Notes under the pieces: model-generated
What the model was told of the DNA's origin: nothing
The model's input: the letters and a program-made list of their open reading frames with translations, nothing else
Database searches by the model: none
Made by a program: the position numbers and the translations under genes
From: Actinotalea sp. JY-7876
GTDB taxonomy: Bacteria; Actinomycetota; Actinomycetes; Actinomycetales; Cellulomonadaceae
Assembly (NCBI RefSeq): GCF_014042015.1
Contig: NZ_CP059493.1
Location: forward strand, 2,604,001-2,668,000
Direction: 5' to 3'
Length of the DNA stretch: 64,000 nt
Shown here: positions 55,940 through 58,002 of the stretch, one piece after another
Layout: the number at the start of each line of letters is the position of its first letter
Position numbering within the stretch: the first letter of the stretch is position 1

Positions 55940-56536
55940 GTGCCCGTGACGACCGACTCCTCCGCACCGACGTCTCGCGCCACCTTCTCGATCCTGACCG
56001 TGTGCACGGGCAACATCTGCCGCTCCCCCGCGGTCGAGCGCCTCCTCGCGGCCGGGCTCGGCCCCGACTCCGGCGTGAGCGTGACCAGCGCCGGGACCCA
56101 CGCGATGGTCGGCTACCCCGTCTCCGAGCCGATGGTCCCGCTGCTGACCACCGCTGGCGGCACCGCGGACGGCTTCGCCGCCCGGCAGCTCACCGAGCGC
56201 CTCGCGCGCGACGCCGACCTGGTGCTCGCCCTGACGCGCGCCCACCGCAGCGCCGTCGTCGAGGCCGCACCGGCGACCGTGCGGCGCGCCTTCACGCTGC
56301 TCGAGTTCGCCCGGCTCGCGGCCGCCGTCGACCCGGCGCAGCTGCCGGCCGGGACCCCCGCCGAGCGCCTCGCCGCGCTCGTCCCGCTCGCGACGGCGCA
56401 GCGCGGGCGCACCCCGGTCGCGCCCGACGCCGACGACGTCGTCGACCCGTACCGGCGCGGGGACGCGGTCTACGCGCAGGTCTTCGACGTCATGGCACCC
56501 GCCGTCGCGACGATCGTGGCGATCGCCCGCGGCTGA
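55940..56536 (+). CDS. Low-molecular-weight protein tyrosine phosphatase (Wzb-like)
   Basis: A 198-residue phosphatase. The catalytic loop is VCTGNICRSP (nucleophile Cys22, Arg28) and the general acid lies in DDVVDPYRRG near residue 172, so the enzyme should be active. It is the usual partner of a BY-kinase such as that at 50947, though 3.4 kb away with two opposite-strand genes between them. GTG 55940 is used; GTG 55946 is equally possible. The next gene, an EAL protein, has its own riboswitch leader. Confidence 0.9.
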   Translation: MPVTTDSSAPTSRATFSILTVCTGNICRSPAVERLLAAGLGPDSGVSVTSAGTHAMVGYPVSEPMVPLLTTAGGTADGFAARQLTERLARDADLVLALTRAHRSAVVEAAPATVRRAFTLLEFARLAAAVDPAQLPAGTPAERLAALVPLATAQRGRTPVAPDADDVVDPYRRGDAVYAQVFDVMAPAVATIVAIARG

Positions 56537-56627
56537 CCCGCCCCGGTGGGCCGAGCGGGTGAACCCGCGGCGGCAACCGCAACTCTCGCGTCATCGCGCG
56601 CCCGCGCCGCGCTCACACTCAGTGACA

Positions 56628-56723
56628 GTCCCTCACCGGGACGACGACAAGGGCACACCCGTCGCGAGGCGGGGCCGCAACGCCACGGGACCGCACGCCG
56701 GTCGGCCGGGCTACCGAAGGGAC
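56628..56723 (+). ncRNA. Cyclic-di-GMP-I (GEMM-I) riboswitch
   Basis: The leader of the EAL gene carries the GEMM-I elements in order. The P1 arm GTCCCT is at 56628. GGGCACACC (56651; consensus GGGCAAACC) follows. A stem capped by a GCGA tetraloop spans 56659-56672. GGGCCGCAACGCC (56672; consensus GGGACGCAAAGCC) precedes a P2 hairpin GACCG/CGGTC (56689-56703). CGGGCTACCGA (56707; consensus CGGGTTGCCGA) comes last, and the P1 partner AGGGAC ends at 56723. The Shine-Dalgarno GAAGGGA of the next gene overlaps the closing P1 strand, so ligand binding should hide it. Confidence 0.8.
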
Positions 56724-56727
56724 ACGC

Positions 56728-57588
56728 ATGGCCACGCTCGACCGCGCCGCCAACACCGACACCGCGCTGGACGCAGACCAGGGCGCCGCGCAGCTCGCGC
56801 TCGGCCTGTTCAACCGTCGTCCCGACGCCCTCGAGGTCGAGCTGCAGCGCGAGCTCGGCGGCGGCCAGCTGCGCATGCACTACCAGCCGCAGCTGGACCT
56901 GGGCGACGGCCGCGTGGTCGCCATGGAGGCGCTGATCCGCTGGGCCCACCCCGACCACGGCCTCATGACGCCGGGGCAGTTCCTGCCCCTGGCGGAGAGC
57001 AACGGTCTCATGGGCATGATCGACACGTGGGCCCTGCGCACCGCGTGCCGCGACGGCGCCTGGCTGGCCTCGCGCGGCCGCACCATCGAGGTCGCCGTCA
57101 ACGTCACGGCCTCCCAGCTCACCGACCCCACCTTCCTCACCGAGGTCGAGCAGGCCACGCGGGCGGCCGGCCTGCCCATCGAGCTGCTCACGGTCGAGAT
57201 GGGCCTGCGCGACGTGCTCGCCCAGATCTACGCGGCGCGCGACGTCGCGCTCGGGCTCCACCGTCGCGGCGTGCGCGTCTCGGTGAGCGACGTCGGCACC
57301 GGCGCCTCCTCCCCGGGCCGCCTCGCGCAGCTGCGGGTCGGGGAGGTCAAGGTCGACCGCGCGCTGACCGCCGCGATGGACGACGCGAGCATCGGCACGG
57401 TCGACGTCGTCCGCGAGATCGTCGCCGCCGCGAAGGCCGACGGTGCCCGGGTGGTCGCCGAGGGCATCGAGACGCCCGCGCAGTACGAGGCCGCACGCCT
57501 GGCGGGCTGCGACCGGGCGCAGGGCTACCTGCTGGGCCGGCCGGCCCCGCTCGAGGACCTCGCCGGGCTGCTCGCTCGCTCGCGCTGA
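56728..57588 (+). CDS. EAL-domain protein without GGDEF, degenerate metal site
   Basis: A 286-residue soluble protein that is essentially one EAL domain. Conserved positions present: Glu67 (MEALIRW), Asn125, Glu157, Asp188, Lys208, Glu245 (AEGIET) and Gln265 (QGYLLGRP). The DDFGTG loop reads SDVGTG, so the first aspartate, a metal ligand in active phosphodiesterases, is Ser187. It may be a weak enzyme or a cyclic-di-GMP receptor. It is preceded directly by a GEMM-I riboswitch, so its own synthesis should respond to cyclic-di-GMP. ATG 56728, SD GAAGGGA five bases upstream. Confidence 0.9.
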   Translation: MATLDRAANTDTALDADQGAAQLALGLFNRRPDALEVELQRELGGGQLRMHYQPQLDLGDGRVVAMEALIRWAHPDHGLMTPGQFLPLAESNGLMGMIDTWALRTACRDGAWLASRGRTIEVAVNVTASQLTDPTFLTEVEQATRAAGLPIELLTVEMGLRDVLAQIYAARDVALGLHRRGVRVSVSDVGTGASSPGRLAQLRVGEVKVDRALTAAMDDASIGTVDVVREIVAAAKADGARVVAEGIETPAQYEAARLAGCDRAQGYLLGRPAPLEDLAGLLARSR

Positions 57589-57633
57589 GCCCTAGCCCGG
57601 CGGGGCCGGTCGACGCACCCCGGCCCCGCGGCC

Positions 57634-58002
57634 TCACAGGGACCGGACGAGCTCGACGGCCTGCAGGAGCGTGAGGTCCGGCTGCTGCCTGCGCACAGCG
57701 ACGACGGCGCTCACCTCGCCCTGCTGGTCGCGGCACCGCCGCACCGCGTCGACGTCGAGCCCGGCGGCGACGGCGGCGACGGACCCGTGCCGGGCGGCGA
57801 ACCACGCGGCGCGCCGGCGCTCGTCCGCACGCTCGGCGACGAACCCGACGGCCGCCACCACGACGACGCCCGTGAAGAGCGCCGTGCCCGCGCCCGGCAG
57901 GTCGAGCAGGAGGAAGCAGACGGCGGACGAGAAGGACAGCACGACGCCCAGGACCAGCAGCGTCGTCGACAGGCGGCGGGACGGCCTCGTGCTCGTGGGC
58001 AT
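57634..58002 (-). CDS. Small membrane protein with ribosomal L7/L12-like tail
   Basis: A 122-residue protein with two adjacent helices (about residues 13-58: TTLLVLGVVLSFSSAVCFLL and TALFTGVVVVAAVGFVA). The cytoplasmic C-terminus ends VVAVRRQQPDLTLLQAVELVRSL, a pattern like the L7/L12 C-terminal helix pair found in several actinobacterial membrane proteins. No function can be named. It stands alone between the EAL gene and the CoA-disulfide reductase operon, pointing away from the latter. Confidence 0.7.
   Translation of the reverse strand: MPTSTRPSRRLSTTLLVLGVVLSFSSAVCFLLLDLPGAGTALFTGVVVVAAVGFVAERADERRRAAWFAARHGSVAAVAAGLDVDAVRRCRDQQGEVSAVVAVRRQQPDLTLLQAVELVRSL

Follow-up and report, generated by a model that had tools for sequence, protein, structure and literature searches.

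A c-di-GMP-I riboswitch-class leader overlapping the Shine–Dalgarno sequence of an EAL-domain gene that lacks two active-site residues in Actinotalea sp. JY-7876

In Actinotalea sp. JY-7876, a short leader with the look of a GEMM-I RNA lies directly upstream of a gene encoding an EAL-domain protein, which raises the question of whether c-di-GMP governs the supply of this protein and what the protein would do with the signal. A preliminary description of the locus, which lies in a 64,000-nucleotide stretch of DNA (the window), had read it as a self-contained feedback loop, in which c-di-GMP would shut off the translation of a protein whose domain handles the same molecule. A riboswitch ahead of an EAL gene is in itself no proof of enzyme feedback, and caution applies to this reading.

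Class membership and odd bases of the aptamer

The EAL leader belongs to the GEMM-I class. The preliminary description had deduced this from the order of the elements, all of which are found as it named them (Table 1), and cmscan against Rfam gave a significant match to RF01051 (c-di-GMP-I, GEMM-I) at 56642–56718 on the plus strand (44.4 bits, gathering threshold 35, E = 2e-5), a model that excludes distal P1, so that the match is no test of 56628–56641 or 56719–56723. It was the sole Rfam family above gathering within the 64-kb window, and the same locus was recovered at E = 2.7e-7 in a whole-genome search. The JY-7876 genome holds six GEMM-I riboswitches, among which the EAL-leader copy scores lowest, and 14 control genomes yielded no GEMM-I matches. 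The collection used for comparison comprises 101 riboswitches in 26 of the 59 genomes searched, the JY-7876 genome included.

Positions follow Vc2 numbering, placed on the EAL leader by counting, an assignment that is in part our assumption. The ligand contacts G20 (G 56652), A47 (A 56679) and C92 (C 56714) are kept, as are C44 and a GNRA loop on P2. Both proximal P1 pairs, G14–C93 and C13–G94, are present as well and occur in 53 and 51, respectively, of 83 parsed leaders in the register used, P1 being unmodelled by RF01051. Between these pairs and distal P1 lie about 11 nt (56634–56644) on one side and 1 nt (56717) on the other, leaving the distal helix discontinuous with the core. Paired positions are conserved in homologous leaders, as the preliminary description had expected: P2 and P3 are kept with compensatory change across 83 distinct parsed leaders (the EAL leader included; 17 of the 101 could not be parsed), of which 81 have GC, AT, GT or TA at P2 pair 4, 82 have CG, TA or GC at P3 pair 4, and 68 form even the weakest pair, P3-3. 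GCGA is the commonest P2 loop (37 of 83). The ligand of this aptamer, we infer, would be c-di-GMP.

Table 1 Features of the EAL leader and gene, in window coordinates
Feature	Position	Strand	Basis
−10-like hexamer CACACT, 8 nt before GTCCC	56614–56619	+	inferred from 79 aligned leaders
GTCCCT (GUCCCU), shared 5′ strand	56628–56633	+	sequence; ensemble probabilities
GGGAC, 3′ strand of competing hairpin P0	56638–56642	+	P0 ensemble probability
c-di-GMP-I (GEMM-I) aptamer RF01051	56642–56718	+	44.4 bits, gathering 35
GGGCACACC	56651–56659	+	sequence
P2 stem–loop CCCGUC-GCGA-GGCGGG	56658–56673	+	sequence, Rfam match, compensatory changes in 83 parsed leaders
GCGA loop	56664–56667	+	sequence
GGGCCGCAACGCC	56672–56684	+	sequence
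P3 stem region; model's A49–U pair at base broken by C at 56681	56682–56711	+	Rfam match, leader comparison
CGGGCTACCGA	56707–56717	+	sequence
Shine–Dalgarno GAAGGGA, overlaps AGGGAC	56716–56722	+	sequence
AGGGAC, distal P1 3′ strand	56718–56723	+	sequence
ATG start codon of EAL gene	56728	+	sequence
EAL-domain protein, 286 aa	56728–57588	+	Pfam PF00563, E 4e-59, 200.3 bits

The preliminary description had also raised the possibility of a divergent subclass, pointing to an A-to-C change (A24C) and to the tail CGGGCTACC as an odd variant. The tail is ordinary among relatives: TACCGAA is the commonest form among the 101 riboswitches (39 of 101, EAL leader included), and we therefore reject it as the mark of such a subclass. 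At position 24, 99 of the 101 have A and 2 have C; at position 43, 91 have A, 8 have G and 2 have C. Both riboswitches with C24 also carry C43. Pattern searches of 221 family genomes, with P2 hairpins judged by eye, placed the C24/C43 pair at four hairpin-bearing loci (the EAL leader and those in G001, G074 and G088); the loose pattern for the pair matches 47 of the 221 genomes, and a P2 hairpin was seen by eye in only four among the 51 matches listed. Neither C24 with A43 (4 matches in 4 of 221 genomes) nor A24 with C43 (4 matches in 2 of 221) gave any match with a P2 hairpin by eye. Because C24 and C43 co-occur at four loci and neither was found alone in these searches, whose patterns fix neighbouring bases and let other variants escape, A24C reads, by sequence comparison, as a coupled and recurring change with A43C. 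Both positions are absent from the list of highly conserved nucleotides in the accessible text of PMC3764141.

The same text describes A49 as highly conserved, with an A-minor contact to G45–C22 (PMC3764141). This residue, a secondary contact rather than a ligand contact, is A in the other 100 of the 101 riboswitches and C in the EAL leader, a substitution that could matter for affinity; because a conserved A-minor residue is changed, affinity may be reduced. Of the divergent-subclass proposal, then, what stands is A49C, unique in the collection (1 of 101) and unnamed in the preliminary description, and what falls away is the normal tail and an A24C that is coupled to A43C at four loci.

The other three C24/C43 riboswitches (L152, L153 and L072/L148) precede proteins that are similar to one another by eye, carry a signal-like N-terminal stretch and are unlike the EAL target. 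Position 20 is A in three of the 101 riboswitches (L042, L072 and L076), one of which, L072, also has C24/C43; A at this position is linked with c-AMP-GMP specificity.

Competing helices at the Shine–Dalgarno sequence

The overlap of the Shine–Dalgarno (SD) sequence with the 3′ strand of P1, noted in the preliminary description, is evident: most of the SD sits inside the distal P1 3′ strand (Table 1). The 5′ end of the leader has two possible partners, in that GUCCC (56628–56632) can pair with GGGAC to form P0, or GUCCCU with AGGGAC to form distal P1, and the two helices exclude one another in the computed ensembles. Across 30 settings of transcript ends, P0 had a probability of 0.89–1.00 and P1 of 0–0.09 in the free ensemble, which leaves the SD open; with P2 and P3 of the aptamer forced, P1 reached 0.51–0.97. 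Mean SD openness was 0.58–0.84 when free and 0.18–0.41 with the aptamer forced, a drop seen in 30 of 30 settings. In one setting, the observed SD change was reached by 3 of 1,000 shuffles of the 17-nt flank and by 4 of 1,000 random flanks of 74% G+C. The EAL leader ranks second for SD closure among the 63 of the 101 leaders that were analysable, the rest being without a start 8–22 nt from the aptamer, a parsed P2/P3 or an SD. The earlier proposal that P1 formation closes the SD is thus borne out in ensembles computed with the aptamer forced, and by the flank shuffles.

Folding of the aptamer costs 3.2–7.4 kcal/mol across the 30 settings, which a tightly bound ligand could make up for. The minimum-free-energy structure of the aptamer-forced state pairs CGG (56637–56639) with CCG (56714–56716), which would occupy C92, nearest-neighbour folding being a method that leaves out tertiary contacts and the ligand. 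Because the SD is computed to close when the aptamer helices form, we predict that the leader is probably a translational OFF switch acting by SD masking. A platform based on transcription termination finds no support, since no intrinsic terminators were found in 56400–57700.

Of the 101 leaders, 79 (a set without the EAL leader) could be aligned on the 5′ GTC; 64 of these have A at −11 and 58 have T at −7. The motif [TC]ANNNT occurs in 46 of the 79, with a spacing of exactly 6 nt to the P1 5′ strand. The aligned hexamer resembles a −10 element, and transcripts seem to start at the first base of the aptamer, that is, the first P1 base. By analogy, transcription of the EAL leader is predicted to start at about 56626–56628, at the P1 5′ strand; a consensus sigma-70 promoter scan of 56400–57700 returned no sites.

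The EAL protein, its orthologues and rival explanations

The EAL protein has no Pfam domain other than PF00563, and its closest named orthologues are those of Actinotalea solisilvae and A. ferrariae. In 221 family genomes, its orthologue group (E = 1e-70) has four members, the JY-7876 protein included. All four keep seven of nine catalytic or stabilizing residues (the EAL Glu, the Asn, the first Glu, the second Asp, the Lys, the AEG Glu and the Gln), and the catalytic-base Glu of the E-G-V-E motif is present (AEGIE, E245). The remaining two are replaced in all four: the first Asp of DDFG, which presumably binds metal, is S, S, S and A (S187 in the JY-7876 protein), and the loop-6 Glu is L, L, L and M (L160). 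Both residues are intact in every one of the 34 non-orthologous EAL domains used for comparison, which comprise 26 from relatives' loci, two paralogues from the window and six from distant loci, the comparison having taken six of ten distant loci and the best-match loci rather than every EAL domain found. Because the protein has lost two active-site residues that all 34 others keep, we think its phosphodiesterase activity doubtful, with catalysis lost or weak. In the available excerpt of PMC12900916, the loop-6 stabilizing glutamate is listed among the functional residues, and an EAL domain is predicted to be inactive only on loss of the catalytic base, other deviating domains being uncertain. 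The JY-7876 protein is more likely to be a receptor than an enzyme and may bind c-di-GMP or a partner; the self-contained feedback loop of the preliminary description is weakened by the same two losses in its target.

Riboswitches are present in three of the four leaders of the orthologue group. Those of the other two riboswitch-bearing orthologues (L054 and L026) score 63.8–64.6 bits against RF03167 (gathering 59). L054 has the same 5-bp P0 stem with a different loop and, by eye, a possible GGUCC/GGACC P1. When the aptamer is forced, its SD openness rises from 0.43–0.44 to 0.71–0.72 and that of L026 hardly changes (12 settings each), on assumed transcript ends in both cases. As computed, neither orthologue thus supports conservation of the OFF direction. 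For the leader of the fourth orthologue (G023), a search allowing E values of up to 10 matched no riboswitch; it retains at its 3′ end GCCGGGCCACCGAACGAAGGA, which riboswitch L052 has too, together with a 5′ piece resembling that of the EAL leader (by eye), and looks like a riboswitch relict that has likely lost its middle. At L105 (about 2560–2510, minus strand), where this leader lies, both GEMM-I ends seem, by eye, to be retained without the middle.

The account that we favour, and consider reasonably probable, is that of a c-di-GMP-I riboswitch that acts in the OFF direction by SD masking on a degenerate EAL target. Without ligand, the 5′ end would fold on itself as P0 and the SD would stay open; once c-di-GMP is bound, its aptamer's helices would hold, P1 would form and cover the SD, and translation of the EAL gene would be lowered. 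The product, probably no working phosphodiesterase, may bind c-di-GMP or a partner, and the switch would thereby make the supply of a receptor-like protein depend on c-di-GMP. Were the protein an active phosphodiesterase, c-di-GMP would shut off its own degrader, and repression of such an enzyme by its own substrate would yield positive feedback and a bistable switch, not homeostasis. The seven retained residues, the Pfam EAL score of 200 bits and the best NCBIfam matches, which are phosphodiesterases that all fall under their cut-offs, argue for this reading; we nevertheless judge it unlikely in view of the Ser or Ala at the DDFG first Asp and the Leu or Met at the loop-6 Glu, found in 4 of 4 orthologues and 0 of 34 other domains.

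It is distinctly unlikely, in our estimate, that the riboswitch is in decay, with the GEMM-I look retained and ligand control gone. Its score, the lowest of six in the genome, its unique A49C with the broken A49–U pair of the model and a G023 orthologue that seems by eye to have kept no more of the motif than its two ends would all fit decay, but the ligand contacts, P2 and P3 are intact, A24C is matched by A43C, and the SD/P1 arrangement is rarer than expected from shuffled flanks. An ON switch, in which aptamer formation frees the start region, is what the openness values of L054 suggest for that leader; for the EAL leader, which behaves oppositely in 30 of 30 settings, we hold it to be very unlikely. 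A low score together with A49C could also point to a variant aptamer for another ligand, such as c-AMP-GMP, a reading that we find highly improbable, given that G20 is G and that A47 and C92 are kept too. According to the excerpt of PMC10333796, position 20, with additional nucleotides, is determinative for c-di-GMP as against c-AMP-GMP; the c-AMP-GMP type was rejected because G, not A, stands there in the EAL leader.

The wider riboswitch family and known systems

Sorted by regular expressions, the genes downstream of the 101 riboswitches comprise 36 that are BldC-like, 21 for small proteins of the VPPxxLARWA type, 20 for long proteins that start with a hydrophobic stretch and 3 for EAL proteins; of the 21 others, two (L008 and L012) belong by eye to the small VPPxxLARWA type. 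In 23 of the 59 genomes, or 23 of the 26 that bear riboswitches, BldC-like helix–turn–helix genes stand directly behind a riboswitch, and two of the proteins were confirmed as BldC family NF033787. The JY-7876 genome itself has such leaders, L004 and L005 (C1:2446922–2446997 and 1598456–1598530, minus strand). L077 (G003:C31:119791–119865 and 120227–120301, minus strand) holds a pair of GEMM-I riboswitches that lie 436 nt apart, each ahead of a BldC-like gene. The genes behind about 20 of the 101 leaders (L001, L007, L008, L012, L014, L017 and others) encode proteins some 50 aa long that carry a VPPQxxARWAA-like motif, and the two such proteins that were searched had no Pfam family match.

BldD is a protein carrier of the c-di-GMP signal; BldC-family genes behind GEMM-I riboswitches would link c-di-GMP to that regulator family through RNA. 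We regard this BldC-linked regulon as a larger surprise than the EAL leader itself, and a literature search whose scope took in few subscription journals found no report linking bldC, c-di-GMP and a riboswitch. Building on the favoured account, we tentatively suggest a two-state leader, the opening nucleotides of which commit either to the upstream hairpin or to the SD, so that c-di-GMP sets the amount of a dead-EAL receptor. This leader might be part of a Cellulomonadaceae c-di-GMP riboswitch regulon with BldC-family regulators, RNA rather than a BldD-like protein carrying the signal to a developmental-type regulator. The combination as a whole is possible rather than probable.

With the RF01051 class, the EAL leader shares a score above gathering, P2 with its GNRA loop, P3, G20, A47, C92 and C44, and, like many members according to the accessible part of PMC7266159, a downstream gene with a c-di-GMP-related domain; riboswitches of this class ahead of c-di-GMP turnover genes were already known from the same source. 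It differs from the class in C49, in C24/C43 for A24/A43 and in a distal P1 that is set off by an 11 × 1 internal loop and carries the SD. Excerpts of PMC9262584 describe Vc2 as repressing translation by masking the ribosome site, and ligand-dependent SD masking is likewise predicted here; in Vc2, however, this site reportedly lies far from the aptamer, whereas the SD of the EAL leader lies within P1 itself. For c-di-GMP-I-GGC (RF03167), which belongs to the same clan as RF01051, no match above the gathering score of 59 was reported for the EAL leader, in a scan that keeps only the best clan member where matches overlap; the RF03167 consensus has G at the position of its A47. A literature search of the same scope as above found no report joining Cellulomonas, GEMM and riboswitch.

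On the protein side, FimX and LapD are degenerate EAL receptors. The EAL protein shares their fold and has FimX structures among its matches, and its match to the LapD model is far under the cut-off (45.2 against 1020 bits). In this 286-aa protein, in contrast to FimX and LapD, the EAL motif is intact, the residues lost being the DDFG Asp and the loop-6 Glu, and there is no second Pfam domain. Taken together, the EAL leader would be a compact GEMM-I switch that acts on translation in an actinobacterium of high G+C content. Set beside these known systems, its features of interest are an SD inside the closing helix P1 with a defined competing hairpin, a recurring C24/C43 pair and an inactive-looking target.
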